A stretch of DNA of 50,367 nt, taken from the NCBI GenBank assembly GCA_010014665.1, contig RZYF01000002.1, forward strand, positions 1 to 50,367, written 5' to 3'. This document shows, in pieces, positions 2,964 through 50,314 of this stretch. The position numbers and the translations under genes were made by a program. The first letter of the stretch is position 1. Every line of letters begins with the position of its first letter. The DNA comes from Candidatus Saccharimonadota bacterium. GTDB lineage: Bacteria > Patescibacteriota > Saccharimonadia > Saccharimonadales > Saccharimonadaceae. The notes below the pieces were generated by a model. The model made no database searches and was not told where the DNA came from. It was given only the letters and a program-made list of their open reading frames with translations.

Positions 2964-3926
2964 CTAGTCAATCACCAAAAAGTCTGAAACCACTAGAGGA
3001 TCACCAGTAGTGGACATGGCTAGTAACCGGCAATCAGCAAAATCTTGTCCAGTAAAATGAAGATATACTTGTGAGGCAAATTTCATTTGTTGAAGTTTTT
3101 TTGGCGTAATCGCGGCAAATCCTCCACCTTGATGGTCGGTTTTGCGATGTTTTACTTCAACAAAGTATAGAACGTTGTCTTTTTTTGCGATTATATCTAT
3201 CTCGCACTGTGTCTTTTTCCAATTCCGTTCGACGATCCCAAAACCACGCTTCGACAGATAATCAGTTGCTAGGTTTTCAGAAGCATTACCGATTTCTCGA
3301 GTCGTCGTTTTTGTTTGAGTATAAGTCGTATCATGATGAAGTGAAGATACGTCATCTACGTTTTCCAAATATTTCTTTATCGGGCTAAAACTTCGTCTAT
3401 GTAGTGGTGTCACGCCGTATTTTTCAATTGCTTCACGATGAAGCTTCGTGCCATAACCGACGTGATGTTCGAAGCCGTACTGAGGATACAGTCTTGCCTG
3501 TTCAATCATATAGCTGTCGCGCGCTACTTTAGCGACTATCGAAGCTGCACTGACGCTAGGAACCAACAGATCAGCCTGTTTCATAGTAGTCACGTAGGGT
3601 GCTTTGCCGGTATCCAGCAAAAAATTAACCGTGCCGTCAAGAATAATCTGATGATACGGTACGCTAATTTGTTCAAGTGCCCGCCGACAAGCCAGTGAAC
3701 AGGCCTGGCTCATACCGATTTCGTCCAGTTCGTCAGCATGCACCCAGCCAAGACCAATCGACTTTGCTTTTTCACGCACCTTCGGTTCAAGTTCGCGCCG
3801 TTTTTTGTCGGTTAGTTTCTTGCTATCTGTCAGACCGTCGATTTCTACACCACCCAAAACTACAGCACAAAAAACCAGTGGTCCCGCCCACGGCCCTCTC
3901 CCGACTTCGTCAATTCCAACTATCAT
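2964..3926 (-). CDS. rnhB: Ribonuclease HII fused to a YraN (UPF0102) nuclease-like domain
   Basis: Residues 1-190 are RNase HII, which cuts the RNA strand of RNA-DNA hybrids and removes ribonucleotides from DNA. The catalytic acids are visible as D6 and E7 in GIDEVGRG, D97 in ILDG and D119 in KQAD. After a Thr-rich linker (about 195-212), residues 213-320 form a YraN-type domain with the PD-(D/E)xK-like core: E217, D244 in CEID, and E257/K259 in FVEVK. In many bacteria rnhB and yraN are neighbours near rplS, and rplS is close by here, so the fusion fits known gene order. A TATAAT box 8 bases upstream of the ATG suggests a leaderless mRNA. The linker is intact and the frame continuous. Confidence 0.93.
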   Translation of the reverse strand: MIVGIDEVGRGPWAGPLVFCAVVLGGVEIDGLTDSKKLTDKKRRELEPKVREKAKSIGLGWVHADELDEIGMSQACSLACRRALEQISVPYHQIILDGTVNFLLDTGKAPYVTTMKQADLLVPSVSAASIVAKVARDSYMIEQARLYPQYGFEHHVGYGTKLHREAIEKYGVTPLHRRSFSPIKKYLENVDDVSSLHHDTTYTQTKTTTREIGNASENLATDYLSKRGFGIVERNWKKTQCEIDIIAKKDNVLYFVEVKHRKTDHQGGGFAAITPKKLQQMKFASQVYLHFTGQDFADCRLLAMSTTGDPLVVSDFLVID

Positions 3927-3979: not shown

Positions 3980-4008
3980 TTGACCTTTTTGATTGTGTGT
4001 GTTATGAT
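3980..4008 (+). promoter_or_regulatory. Promoter of unit E2
   Basis: TTGACC (3980-3985), an exact 17-base spacer and TATGAT (4003-4008). It lies outside the inverted repeat, so the repeat is transcribed. The RNA should start near 4015. Confidence 0.75.
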
Positions 4009-4016
4009 ATAAGGGT

Positions 4017-4039
4017 TTCGTTGAGATAAATTCTCCGAA
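4017..4039 (+). other. Unit E2, 5' terminal hairpin
   Basis: TTCG (4017-4020) pairs with CGAA (4036-4039) and GAGA (4023-4026) with TCTC (4032-4035), with a TT bulge and loop TAAAT. It begins about where the RNA should begin. The E3 hairpin has the same two-stem form. Confidence 0.55.
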
Positions 4040-4045
4040 GCACTT

Positions 4046-4057
4046 TGACAGAGCAGG
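4046..4057 (+). repeat. Unit E2, left (5') arm
   Basis: TGACAGAGCAGG is a perfect 12-base inverted copy of 4525-4536. The context CACTTTGACAGAGCAG matches the E3 arm context TACTTTGACAAACAG. Confidence 0.75.
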
Positions 4058-4065
4058 AACAAACT

Positions 4066-4119
4066 GTTCGACTGGTCTCAATGCGTGTGATATCTCGCAT
4101 GTATCGAGACCATTCGAAC
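4066..4119 (+). other. Unit E2, long leader hairpin before the ribosome binding site
   Basis: Three nested complementary pairs: GTTCG with CGAAC, GGTCTC with GAGACC, and ATGCG with CGCAT. They form one long stem-loop ending just before the Shine-Dalgarno at 4121-4127. It could control translation or shape a functional RNA. Confidence 0.65.
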
Positions 4120-4136: not shown

Positions 4137-4481
4137 ATGCTATTGGTCAACGAAGAAAGGTCGGCACTGCGACAAGTCAATCGTGCTGCCAGGAAGCTGA
4201 AGAAGCGGATCGACAAGTTGGAAAACTCCGAGAGATGGAAGAAGATGGAAGTGTGGGAGCGCTATCTCGAACACGACCACCTCATCTGGTCAGCTGTCTG
4301 GCACATCCCATTGAGGATGCACAAGAGCATCGCTTCCCTCACCTCCTGGCTCGAGAGCCGGGCCCTCCTCACAGACTACTACAAAGATAACCGCTCCAAA
4401 CCAACAAGAAGGGATGTTCGTGAATTGTGCGTGTACGCACTTCTGGTGAAGAGTGTATACGCCACAGAAGAAGTTCGCTAG
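4137..4481 (+). CDS. GC-rich orphan protein (unit E2), helical and basic
   Basis: I do not recognise this 114-residue protein. It is rich in Arg, Lys, Glu and Trp, has no membrane segment or cysteine motif, and its first about 45 residues look like a charged helix or coiled coil. Of two nearby ATGs, the one at 4137 is preferred: the AAAGGGG at 4121-4127 is 9 bases away, but only 1 base from the ATG at 4129, which opens another frame of about 23 codons. The frame is also free of stops upstream to 4008 but has no start codon there. The gene is GC-richer than its neighbours, has its own promoter and ends 2 bases before a very strong hairpin. Its layout matches E1, E3 and E4. Confidence 0.72.
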   Translation: MLLVNEERSALRQVNRAARKLKKRIDKLENSERWKKMEVWERYLEHDHLIWSAVWHIPLRMHKSIASLTSWLESRALLTDYYKDNRSKPTRRDVRELCVYALLVKSVYATEEVR

Positions 4482-4483
4482 TT

Positions 4484-4507
4484 GGCGCGGGGCTTCGGCC
4501 CCGCGCC
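4484..4507 (+). terminator. Strong hairpin after the E2 gene
   Basis: GGCGCGGGGC and GCCCCGCGCC... pair through at least 9 G-C pairs around a C(UUCG)G tetraloop, starting 2 bases after the TAG stop. There is no U-run directly after it. Confidence 0.8.
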
Positions 4508-4524: not shown

Positions 4525-4536
4525 CCTGCTCTGTCA
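4525..4536 (+). repeat. Unit E2, right (3') arm
   Basis: CCTGCTCTGTCA, the exact inverted copy of 4046-4057, followed by ATTTTCTC. In RNA the two arms would close the whole transcript. Confidence 0.75.
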
Positions 4537-13895: not shown

Positions 13896-13906
13896 ACTAT
13901 ACAAAT

Positions 13907-14179
13907 TTATTTTTTATTGAAACCGTCACGTGCACCTTGAATAGCATTTTCGGCTCGATCGCCAAAATCTTTTGCTTTTGCTTCAACGTCTGACTTGATA
14001 TTCCCAGCTTTATTTTTAGCGACATCGGCTTTGCTTTGTGCCTCGGTTTTTAACTCATTTGCTTTGCGTTTAATGTCTTCTCGAGTTTCCTTACCACTTT
14101 TTGGAGCTGACAGTAAAGCCGCAACCGCACCGATAGATGCACCCAAAAATGCTCCTAGTGCAAATTTACCTTTTGACAT
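13907..14179 (-). CDS. YtxH-like protein
   Basis: A 90-residue protein with an N-terminal glycine/alanine-rich membrane segment (G-A-F-L-G-A-S-I-G-A-V-A-A-L-L) followed by A-P-K-S-G-K-E-T-R, the signature of YtxH proteins, and a long Lys/Ala/Glu helix. YtxH-family proteins are linked to stress in Bacillus, but the molecular role is not known. A perfect Shine-Dalgarno (AGGAGG) lies upstream of the ATG. It is the middle gene of the 14443-13635 operon. Confidence 0.82.
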   Translation of the reverse strand: MSKGKFALGAFLGASIGAVAALLSAPKSGKETREDIKRKANELKTEAQSKADVAKNKAGNIKSDVEAKAKDFGDRAENAIQGARDGFNKK

Positions 14180-19332: not shown

Positions 19333-19347
19333 ACAAACAGACAGACT
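19333..19347 (-). repeat. Unit E3, left (3') arm
   Basis: ACAAACAGACAGACT, a perfect 15-base inverted copy of 20156-20170. It lies beyond the terminator hairpin of the E3 gene. Confidence 0.85.
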
Positions 19348-19357
19348 AGCAACCCGA

Positions 19358-19391
19358 CTTTGCGGACCCGGGATGACCCGGGTCCGCAAAG
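19358..19391 (-). terminator. Very strong hairpin after the E3 gene
   Basis: CTTTGCGGACCCGGG and CCCGGGTCCGCAAAG form a perfect 15-base stem with a 4-base loop, starting 8 bases after the stop codon. There is no U-run after it. Confidence 0.85.
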
Positions 19392-19399
19392 TATTCGAG

Positions 19400-19810
19400 T
19401 CAGTCGCAGAGACCCAGATCTTCGAATAGGCGTCTTACGAGGTTGTAATCGGCTGTGGAGCCAGCCTCGCCCTCGTCATCGGTGAACGACATGGGCACCT
19501 GGGTAGTACGATCGATCAAGAAGTCGACTGTGTTTTCAAGTCTATTGATGACCACACCGACCACGAACCGCTTGGCCTCGTTGCAGAGCGCCTCCGTGGT
19601 GAGGGTATGTAAGCGGGCACGCTCCTCTTGCACCTTACCGTCAGGAGTACAGGCAATGATCTGCTCGATGTGAACTTGCCGGTGCGCGAGATCTTTCTTG
19701 CGTGCCTTCTCGCCGACCGGATCGTCGACCAGCTCCACAAACCTTCCAACGACGTAGTCAGTGATAGCGGTGGCAACCCCGCGTGCGTCCTCAGCACCGA
19801 CTACAGTCAC
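19400..19810 (-). CDS. GC-rich orphan protein (unit E3), intact 3' part of an interrupted frame
   Basis: I do not recognise this protein. The uninterrupted part could start at the GTG at 19808-19810 and gives 136 residues, with an Arg/Lys-rich helix in the middle, a hydrophobic segment K-R-F-V-V-G-V-V-I, and an acidic C-terminal third. No membrane segment or cysteine motif is obvious. The natural start is probably the ATG at 20057-20059, which has a Shine-Dalgarno and the same frame, but an amber codon at 19982-19984 interrupts it. The GTG has no convincing ribosome binding site. So the gene is either read through at TAG, is a recent pseudogene, or contains a sequence error. GC content is clearly above that of gatC and uvrB on either side. 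Confidence 0.6.
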   Translation of the reverse strand: MTVVGAEDARGVATAITDYVVGRFVELVDDPVGEKARKKDLAHRQVHIEQIIACTPDGKVQEERARLHTLTTEALCNEAKRFVVGVVINRLENTVDFLIDRTTQVPMSFTDDEGEAGSTADYNLVRRLFEDLGLCD

Positions 19811-20059
19811 CTCAACGTAGAGGCTGTAGCCGACACCGCTGGAGCTATTGACGATTGAGTGACTGTTGTTGCCGGGCTCAACCCGACCAACGATGTCGAA
19901 GGGGTCCAGATCGTCAATCTCCCTGATAACTTCGTCGACTGTCGAGAAGTCCCGTCCTGGATGTAGCTGTCGGAATTCCGACTACTGTCTCCGTAGACCG
20001 CTAGCCCTCATGAGACACTCAGTTGTAATCTTGGGTTCAGTGGTTGGATTAGTAGTCAT
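19811..20059 (-). pseudogene. 5' part of the E3 gene, with in-frame TAG at codon 26
   Basis: From the ATG at 20057-20059, preceded by GAGGAG, the frame runs in phase into the orphan gene. The only stop before the true end is TAG at 19982-19984. The codons after it (S-E-F-R-Q-L-H-P-G-R-D-F) keep the same GC-rich character, so this is one 220-codon gene with one break. No ATG, GTG or TTG follows the TAG before 19810. Confidence 0.7.
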
Positions 20060-20101: not shown

Positions 20102-20155
20102 GTGTAGTGTGGCAAGCTAGGTTCATCTCTATAAACACAGCTTGCCAAACTACAC
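20102..20155 (-). other. Unit E3, long leader hairpin
   Basis: GTGTAGTGTGGCAAGCT (20102-20118) and AGCTTGCCAAACTACAC (20139-20155) form a 17-base stem with one mismatch and a 20-base loop. It abuts the 5' arm at 20156-20170 directly and lies before the Shine-Dalgarno. E2 has a leader hairpin in the same place. Confidence 0.75.
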
Positions 20156-20170
20156 AGTCTGTCTGTTTGT
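20156..20170 (-). repeat. Unit E3, right (5') arm
   Basis: AGTCTGTCTGTTTGT on the plus strand, the exact inverted copy of 19333-19347. On the transcribed strand its context reads TACTTTGACAAACAGAC, close to the E2 and E4 arms. Confidence 0.85.
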
Positions 20171-20178
20171 CAAAGTAT

Positions 20179-20201
20179 CTCGGAGCAATATGCTACACGA
20201 G
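20179..20201 (-). other. Unit E3, 5' terminal hairpin
   Basis: On the minus strand CTCG-TGT-AGCA-TAT-TGCT-C-CGAG: two stems split by a small internal loop, beginning 11 bases after the -10 box. It has nearly the same form as the E2 hairpin at 4017-4039. Confidence 0.6.
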
Positions 20202-20212
20202 CACTGTTTTTT

Positions 20213-20241
20213 ATAATAGCACTATTATTTAAAATTGTCAA
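20213..20241 (-). promoter_or_regulatory. Promoter of unit E3
   Basis: On the minus strand TTGACA (20236-20241), a 17-base spacer and TATTAT (20213-20218), a near-consensus promoter. The predicted leader before the ATG is about 145 bases. Confidence 0.82.
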
Positions 20242-49729: not shown

Positions 49730-49743
49730 CGACAAGCAGACCA
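49730..49743 (-). repeat. Unit E4, left (3') arm
   Basis: CGACAAGCAGACCA, a perfect 14-base inverted copy of 50233-50246, about 100 bases past the gene stop. Confidence 0.82.
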
Positions 49744-49814: not shown

Positions 49815-49856
49815 GGAGTCAGGATGTTATTCCAGGTACTCAGGGAGTCAGGATGT
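49815..49856 (-). repeat. Short direct repeat across the end of the E4 gene
   Basis: GGAGTCAGGATGT occurs at 49815-49827 and again at 49844-49856, 29 bases apart. The second copy holds the last codons of the gene (I-L-T-P-stop), the first lies just after it. The region can also fold into an imperfect hairpin (49803-49845). Confidence 0.6.
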
Positions 49857-50214
49857 GGGCTTTGCAGGGCTCACAGCGGCTCAGGTGAAGTTCCCACGCC
49901 AGCTCGTAAGCGGCTGCCGCGAGTTCGCGTTCCGCTGGCGAAGCCTCTTCCGGAGCATACATAGCGGCGACGTAATCCATGGACAGATGGTCCTCTTCCC
50001 AATTGCGAGTGAGGACTCGACGGGCACGGGGTGTGTAGAGGATCGCTTCCACCTGCTGAGGGCTACGTGGCCCCTGGTAAAGGAGCCTCACGAGCTGCCT
50101 TAGCCAGAGTCCGTTCCCTAGGTACGTTGGGTTAAACTCTTGCTTGAGCGCTACGCGAGCCAATGCAGCGCGCAGTTTTTCGAGATCGAACAAGTGCTGT
50201 GGCGCGTCGGTCAT
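49840..50214 (-). CDS. GC-rich orphan protein (unit E4)
   Basis: I do not recognise this 124-residue protein. It is helical, rich in Arg, Ala, Leu and Glu, with R-A-R-R-V-L-T-R-N in the middle and a C-terminal C-E-P-C pair (R-C-E-P-C-K-A-H), which might bind a metal or form a disulphide. No membrane segment. GC content is well above that of gpmA and its flanks. AGAAGG lies before the ATG, unlike the leaderless gpmA. The gene has its own consensus promoter and the same layout as E1-E3. Confidence 0.72.
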   Translation of the reverse strand: MTDAPQHLFDLEKLRAALARVALKQEFNPTYLGNGLWLRQLVRLLYQGPRSPQQVEAILYTPRARRVLTRNWEEDHLSMDYVAAMYAPEEASPAERELAAAAYELAWELHLSRCEPCKAHILTP

Positions 50215-50232: not shown

Positions 50233-50246
50233 TGGTCTGCTTGTCG
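50233..50246 (-). repeat. Unit E4, right (5') arm
   Basis: TGGTCTGCTTGTCG on the plus strand, the exact inverted copy of 49730-49743. It sits 18 bases before the start codon, next to the Shine-Dalgarno. Confidence 0.82.
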
Positions 50247-50249
50247 AGG

Positions 50250-50279
50250 TGCATATGATAGGATAATCCTACCGATGCA
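50250..50279 (-). other. Unit E4, 5' terminal hairpin
   Basis: TGCAT with ATGCA and TAGGA with TCCTA form a two-stem hairpin starting 6 bases after the -10 box, just before the arm. Same place and form as in E2 and E3. Confidence 0.55.
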
Positions 50280-50285
50280 TTGCTT

Positions 50286-50314
50286 ATTATAGCACGTAAT
50301 AGATTTTAAGTCAA
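50286..50314 (-). promoter_or_regulatory. Promoter of unit E4
   Basis: On the minus strand TTGACT (50309-50314), an exact 17-base spacer and TATAAT (50286-50291). The RNA should start near 50279 and begin with the 5' hairpin. Confidence 0.82.

Follow-up and report, generated by a model that had tools for sequence, protein, structure and literature searches.

A bulged 5′ hairpin and a distantly paired arm as the possible start of a modular gene cassette in Saccharibacteria

A bulged hairpin followed by a short conserved motif recurs at the 5′ end of transcript units in Saccharibacteria. In the reading towards which we lean, by a modest measure, this feature opens a modular gene cassette that acts at the RNA level, with its two ends joined in a panhandle that would give end protection and shared control. 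The anatomy of the units (promoter, hairpin, core, arm, gene and complementary arm) is strongly supported by sequence comparison, and the combination of a bulged 5′ hairpin, paired ends and a GC-rich unique gene is apparently an undescribed architecture.

Layout of the units in the window

The window, which is the whole stretch of 50,367 nucleotides analysed here, is contig C26 of a 928-kb genome (G000) and holds three units, named E2, E3 and E4. The three motif strings given in the initial annotation are all found as written, E2 at 4041-4057 on the forward strand, and E3 at 20177-20161 and E4 at 50251-50235 on the reverse strand. The single matches to the E3 and E4 strings far exceed chance expectation, which is 0.00 with one mismatch; the E2 string alone (three mismatches) is expected 0.37 times by chance and is not above it.

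E2 has a promoter at 3980-4008 (+), read from the sequence as a −35 box TTGACC (3980-3985), a 17-nt spacer and a −10 box TATGAT (4003-4008), from which a transcription start at about 4015 is predicted. At that position begins a bulged hairpin (4015-4041, fold z −4.3) whose pairing covaries across 18 leaders. Its RNA reads GUUUCG-UU-GAGA-UAAAU-UCUC-CGAAGC, with an outer stem (4015-4020/4036-4041), an inner stem (4023-4026/4032-4035) and, on the 5′ side between the two, a 2-nt UU bulge (4021-4022). The sequence CACTTTGACA comes after this hairpin (4015-4057). The core CACTTTGACAGAGCAGG at 4041-4057 consists of an unpaired CACTT and then the 5′ arm TGACAGAGCAGG (4046-4057). A long 5′ UTR hairpin in the minimum free energy fold (4066-4119) lies between the arm and the ribosome-binding site, and the cargo gene (4137-4481) encodes a 114-aa ORFan with a GC3 of 0.68 against a genome mean of 0.37. 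Behind it are a GC-rich 3′ hairpin (4484-4507, from sequence and fold) and the 3′ panhandle arm CCTGCTCTGTCA (4525-4536).

E3, on the reverse strand, has the same parts: a promoter at 20213-20241 (TTGACA 20241-20236, TATTAT 20218-20213), a 5′ hairpin at 20175-20206 (fold z −2.45), the core ACTTTGACA with the 5′ arm ACAAACAGACAGACT (20170-20156) together spanning 20156-20177, a long 5′ UTR hairpin seen in the fold at 20102-20155, and then, from the inverted-repeat scan that also gave the arms, a GC-rich 3′ hairpin at 19357-19392 and the 3′ arm at 19333-19347, complementary at 15 of 15 positions. Its cargo frame (19400-20059, 219 codons) is coding-like in composition (GC1/2/3 0.62/0.40/0.64) and has one in-frame TAG at 19984-19982, which may reflect a pseudogene, a sequencing error, readthrough or something else. 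E4, also on the reverse strand, starts with a promoter at 50286-50314 (TTGACT 50314-50309, TATAAT 50291-50286) and a 5′ hairpin TGCAT..ATGCA at 50250-50279 (fold z −3.14). The scan places its core CACCT and 5′ arm CGACAAGCAGACCA (50246-50233) at 50233-50251 and its 3′ arm, a 14/14 complement, at 49730-49743; the cargo gene (49840-50214) encodes a 124-aa ORFan with a GC3 of 0.65.

The order of parts is thus promoter, 5′ hairpin, ACTTTGACA core, arm, long hairpin (not in E4), ribosome-binding site, gene, 3′ UTR and complementary arm, with a strong GC hairpin within the 3′ UTR of E2 and E3. The DNA between the arms is 54-56% GC with one reading frame, and the flanks are 33-42% GC. Whole window units fold with z-scores of −6 to −7, and with relatives included the range is −6 to −13, against about 0 for ordinary window genes and for control genes. 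Since folds of the reading frames alone are near normal, the excess structure of E2, E3, E4 and E5 (a further unit of the same genome) lies in the UTRs.

More GC-rich ORFans or surface-protein genes, among them those named E1 and E6, are found in the window at 2228-2731 (−) and in loci L079 (1669-2116), L084 (6507-7099) and L038 (860-1858). Genes of this type have their own promoter and a GC hairpin, without a clear long arm pair, and may be a sister class of cassettes. The window also contains, at 2967-3926 (−), a single gene matching both RNase HII and UPF0102 (YraN-like) domains; the fusion appears in relatives too, where a single tblastn match spans it.

Pairing of the arms and of the 5′ hairpin

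The sequence GACA(A)GCAG(A)C forms one side, the 5′ arm, of a perfect inverted repeat, and its partner lies 3′ of the gene. In E2 positions 4046-4057 are perfectly complementary to 4525-4536; the arms of E3 (20170-20156/19347-19333) and E4 (50246-50233/49743-49730) are 15 and 14 bp long. The predicted probability of arm pairing is near 1 in E2 to E5 (0.81-1.00 in E2). An alignment of 29 units at the arm shows 100% pairing at positions 7-10, where 3′ arms swapped between units give a mean of 82.5%, and 78% pairing at positions 11-13, where swapped arms give 51%. None of 2000 such arm-swap shuffles, which ignore the relatedness of units, reaches the observed pairing. ACTT outside the arms has no consistent pairing, and in the 29 aligned units CACTTT is found on the 5′ side only, with no mirror image on the 3′ side. 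The initial annotation had described a conserved single-strand motif. Its conservation holds, but only ACTTT is unpaired, and the description as single-stranded is wrong because GACAAGCAGA forms the 5′ arm of a predicted long-range helix, the other strand of which is the 3′ end of that transcript unit. The protein- or RNA-binding role that the annotation suggested for the motif is conceivable.

The hairpin with two stems that had been noticed ahead of each motif is present in E2, E3 and E4, and its general plan is an outer stem, a bulge that is mostly 2 nt on the 5′ side, and an inner stem. That its pairing is kept while the sequence changes is borne out in a larger set: of 143 stem pairs in 18 leaders 142 are standard, where 2000 shuffles average 110 and never exceed 121, counted on a structure-anchored hand alignment and with shuffles that ignore relatedness. 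RNAalifold on an automatic MAFFT alignment of the leaders gave no consensus structure, probably due to their varying loop lengths. Related leaders (n = 32) have a mean fold z of −2.25 against −0.35 for 89 neighbouring control segments, and the core CTTTGACA is invariant across 17 aligned leaders from many genera. The motif does not lie at random positions away from promoters, a case that the initial annotation had considered; the hairpin adjoins promoters, and the spacing between −10 box and hairpin seen in E2 recurs in most of the 32 units.

Related units, their cargo and their 3′ ends

In total 32 units were assembled, and members were found through their arms. A scan of the window's own genome with ACTTTGACARRCAGRC and a test for a distant partner gave E5, on contig C12, where a 12/12 inverted repeat surrounds a GC-rich reading frame. 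In the congeneric genome G002 its counterpart L040, with matching arms of its own, occupies the same locus beside an mscL-like gene. Further units were found in G002 and in G017, from another genus of the family. One of those in G002, L054, is 904 nt long with no reading frame above 79 aa and a fold z of −13, and BLAST with it found a unit in a different family (G099) whose cargo is an LPxTG-like surface protein. A degenerate motif pattern was scanned in 394 genomes of the family; 12 of the 51 matches examined have a partner of at least 11 bp, compared with two direct-repeat controls. The exact form CTTTGACAAGCAGA has 21 matches in 392 genomes of the order (two for the reversed control); 15 of the 21 have an inverted-repeat partner of 11 bp or more, and six copies are in one genome, G510. 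The degenerate and the exact search yielded what we call the canonical form of the unit. Long 5′ UTR hairpins like that of E2 are found in E3, L054, L105 and canonical units. The motif pattern had no match in viral contigs. Genome-wide, inverted repeats of 11-12 nt around genes are no commoner than direct repeats, save for a small excess among the most GC-rich genes; this gene-by-gene test is crude, and gene calling missed several cargo genes.

Several other arrangements were seen in these genomes. Beside the 904-nt noncoding unit is an apparently noncoding unit of 213 nt and 61% GC (L054 4865-5077, −), built on the same plan, with arms TTGGCATACCAG. Upstream of the LPxTG-like surface-protein unit of G099 is a c-di-GMP-II riboswitch match (L093 1617-1692, −) of 47.8 bits, below the gathering score and cut by the locus end. 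Similar-looking two-gene operons for GC-rich membrane and secreted proteins (L102 4120-6311, +; G017:C1 285656-287994, +) have AT-rich arms in each genome, unlike GACAAG. Ahead of E5 and of its counterpart, with similar flanks, is a leader with a strong terminator-like hairpin (L079 about 3050-3200, −; L040 about 13900-14000, −) that looks like an attenuator or a new riboswitch; Rfam gave no match near E5. In L227 (G178:C4) two motif copies at about 1602 and 5176 lie 3.5 kb apart with a 24-nt direct repeat. No arm partner was found for the first copy, which is possibly a broken or nested unit.

The cargo frames of E2 to E5 have coding periodicity, with GC lowest at the second position. On this periodicity, together with the near-normal folds of the reading frames alone, we rejected a purely noncoding RNA for these four. 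The E2 cargo has no relative in 40 genomes, and cargo searched against Pfam, PHROGs and NCBIfam gave no convincing match. A phage or plasmid origin of the cargo was considered and rejected (P0001, no phage match; P0002, no plasmid match). Cargo genes are unrelated between units except for L223 and L224, where the proteins are 28% identical by BLAST, the promoter and 5′ UTR 89% and the 3′ UTR 94%; judging from these sequences, the frame is conserved in this pair and the content is fast-changing.

Codon usage in the cargo is strongly biased. Across 26 units GC3 ranges from 0.52 to 0.96, with a z-score of 2.5 to 8.2 against the genome where computable. The window units are less extreme (0.52-0.68); most units of G002, G017 and several relatives have 0.73-0.96, as for example 0.96 in G17a, 0.94 in L105 and G17b, and 0.90 in L221. 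Mean GC3 is 0.37 in the window genome, about 0.43 in G002 and 0.48 in G017. In units with a GC3 above 0.75, AAG and AAC each make up 97% of the codons for their amino acid, ATC 92% and CTC plus CTG 83%, a usage which we take to resemble that of a high-GC actinobacterium. The 5′ UTRs of the 26 units are mostly 39-59% GC and the UTRs mostly stay close to the genomic value; in G002 and G017 the genes for EF-Tu and ribosomal proteins are unbiased (GC3 0.38-0.54). The bias is therefore not a regional one, nor is it the mark that highly expressed genes usually bear in the epibiont.

The 3′ end of the canonical units has further parts. In 12 of 20, a full type III hammerhead core, CUGAUGAG / GAAA with three stems, comes directly after the 3′ arm. 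One example reads ..UGUCUGCUUGUCA UAUUCGCUC^CACAAAUGUGUAUUUGUG CUGAUGAG UCC GAAA GGA CGAAA GCGAA, where the cleavage position (^) is taken from the family. Matches to the Rfam model RF00008 have E-values down to 1e-5 and 28-40 bits, under the gathering score of 48.5; the relatives' core matches the known ribozyme, which in the cassettes marks the end of a protein-coding unit. The type is recognised by three stems with a CUGANGA and GAAA core behind a NUH cleavage triplet, and predicted cleavage is within about 10 nt of the 3′ arm. Rfam gave no hammerhead of any useful score in the window units or near E2 to E5. Around the 3′ arm, a local hairpin of 24 bp has 96.5% of its cells paired, compared with 30-57% for slid controls, and shows compensatory changes; its end coincides, in several units, with the predicted cleavage site. 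In canonical units this hairpin is predicted to be more stable (−38 to −50 kcal/mol) than the panhandle duplex (−21 to −24 kcal/mol), and the panhandle probability goes from 0.02 (L257) to 0.96 (L221). Because the two compete for the 3′ arm, a switch between them is possible in the modelled folds of canonical units. For the window units, which are without the hammerhead, the panhandle is the predicted stable form.

The 5′ UTR of some relatives matches RAGATH-10 (RF03147), an orphan Rfam motif of only about 80 nt known from the vicinity of twister- and hammerhead-associated genes. Several canonical units match it immediately inward of the 5′ arm and as far as the Shine-Dalgarno sequence. Carriers make up six of 392 genomes of the class, one of them above threshold: L261 scores 72.9 bits against a threshold of 41.2, and other relatives 25-38 bits. 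This sole above-threshold match (G134) belongs to a unit whose arms pair over 17 bp, the match in L263 to one with a 15-bp arm pair and a hammerhead, and RAGATH-10 therefore appears, at the sequence level, to be a piece of the cassette architecture. The covariance model, at the 41.2-bit threshold, had no match in the window or near E2 to E5 and no useful score there. The motif excludes the promoter, bulged hairpin, arms, cargo and 3′ end, all of which the cassette has. Our literature search found no paper naming RAGATH-10, its function or anatomy, and none linking the hammerhead and Saccharibacteria.

Possible roles and competing explanations

In the proposed mechanism, each cassette would be transcribed from its own promoter, with the RNA predicted to begin at the first base of the bulged hairpin. 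After the unpaired ACTTT, the arm GACAAGCAGA would pair with the 3′ end of its own transcript and close the mRNA into a panhandle, with hairpins, inside the closed ends, on either side of the coding region; for many relatives, cleavage by a downstream hammerhead is predicted at a constant position beside the 3′ arm. The cargo would be one fast-changing ORFan per cassette, with extreme GC-rich codon usage. Ends capped off in this way could make the mRNA resistant to exonucleases and bring unrelated cargo under one shared control, and in some relatives, where the competing local hairpin holds the 3′ arm, the pairing might switch. What the sequences show is the anatomy of the units, recurrence in many genomes, covarying arms and hairpin, a core on the 5′ side only, association with the putative ribozyme and RAGATH-10, and codon bias; the start site, an active ribozyme, a panhandle formed in the cell, protected ends and common control are inferred. 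The likeliest role, we think, is end protection plus common control of a class of fast-evolving proteins.

Like insertion sequences, the cassettes are multi-copy and have perfect inverted repeats around a short gene, and it is conceivable, if improbable, that they are mobile DNA, a transposon-like element bounded by the arms as its terminal inverted repeats, loaded with GC-rich passengers and dependent on an enzyme encoded elsewhere. The TGACAAGCAGACA arms do recur in many genomes with unrelated cargo (the six copies in G510 among them), E2 is absent from the corresponding rplS-rnhB gap of the genome G001, and the coding part looks foreign in composition. Against this, the ends are asymmetric, with CACTTT and hairpin on one side only, no transposase is present, and the arms vary between units and match within a unit, as for paired RNA. 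The promoter and hairpin outside the arm are conserved parts of the unit and belong to the extra DNA at the E2 site, which means that the arms are not its boundary. A target-site duplication is not visible by eye in E2 to E5, the empty-site relative being too diverged for exact junctions, and E5 has kept its locus in two species. G017 does contain a true IS30-like element (622120-623144), which does not resemble the cassettes. A plain transposon with terminal inverted repeats was rejected on the asymmetric ends and a unit larger than the repeat; mobility is possible as an account of how the units spread, but it leaves the asymmetric, covarying ends unexplained.

A little less probable still is translational repression, in which the ribosome-binding site would be masked by the 3′ arm and the resulting duplex open to attack by RNase III. 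Long-range pairing of the 5′ and 3′ UTRs through a 7-nt motif regulates a single bacterial mRNA, icaR of Staphylococcus aureus (PMC3868564), and the cassettes are alike in pairing UTR with UTR within one mRNA. In E5 and L040 the likeness goes further, as the Shine-Dalgarno sequence is inside the arm: the 5′ arm has AAGGAGG right before the start codon and the 3′ arm has CCTCCTT. By analogy, these two may additionally mask their ribosome-binding site. RAGATH-10-like folds also adjoin the ribosome-binding site. Yet pairing of this kind is not found in E2 to E4, which have arm and ribosome-binding site in separate places; outside E5 and L040, most units have their start codon about 80-180 nt from the arm (91 nt in E2) and uncovered, and canonical arms are not anti-Shine-Dalgarno. 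Where icaR is one gene, the cassettes are dozens of unrelated genes with a common hairpin and core and with arms of 10-17 bp mostly far from the start codon.

The codon bias brings up a doubtful but striking idea, namely that the epibiont makes mRNAs which are translated in a high-GC actinobacterial host, with ends armoured by the bulged 5′ hairpin, the panhandle and a 3′ hairpin trimmed by the ribozyme, and with fast-evolving effector genes written in the host's codon dialect. We know of no transport route for such mRNAs into the host. The high GC3 of most cargo in G002, G017 and several relatives beside UTRs mostly near genomic GC, the unbiased EF-Tu and ribosomal genes, and the two relatives with UTRs 89-94% identical and cargo only 28% identical would fit it, and the known hosts of Saccharibacteria are Actinobacteria (PMC10746230). 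The window cargo is only moderately biased, though, and a foreign origin of the coding part could also explain the codons. The broad tRNA set of G002 includes GC-reading anticodons, so that the epibiont could read these codons itself; missing tRNAs as proof of translation in the host were rejected on this ground.

Circularisation, by which a ribozyme-made 3′ end and paired arms would ready the transcript for ligation into a circular mRNA, we regard as quite improbable. Hammerhead cleavage, predicted here about 10 nt or less from the 3′ arm, leaves a 2′,3′-cyclic phosphate, and paired ends beside ribozyme cuts resemble designed ribozyme-RtcB circles. But RtcB (PF01139) is in none of 41 Saccharibacteria genomes, compared with 9 of 14 control genomes, which makes ligation by RtcB in the epibiont unlikely; no 5′ ribozyme was found, the RNA apparently begins at the hairpin and would then bear a 5′ triphosphate, and the window units are without the hammerhead. 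That short repeats surround unrelated GC-rich genes by chance is very nearly negligible as an explanation: 11-nt inverted repeats abound in these genomes without outnumbering direct ones, but the motif predicts partners of 12-17 bp in independent genomes, direct-repeat controls are rare (2/51), and the arms covary.

Saccharibacteria, which grow on other bacteria, have many genes that lack relatives, and little is understood, to our knowledge, of the ways in which they manage their hosts. With a modular cassette as the preferred reading, CACTTTGACAAGCAGA and its distant partner would serve as a sequence handle that groups such ORFans into one co-controlled class, and the architecture would give RAGATH-10 and the hammerhead ribozymes of Saccharibacteria a context. 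It also raises the question why cargo in a genome of 42-48% GC uses the codons of high-GC actinobacteria when its own UTRs mostly do not.
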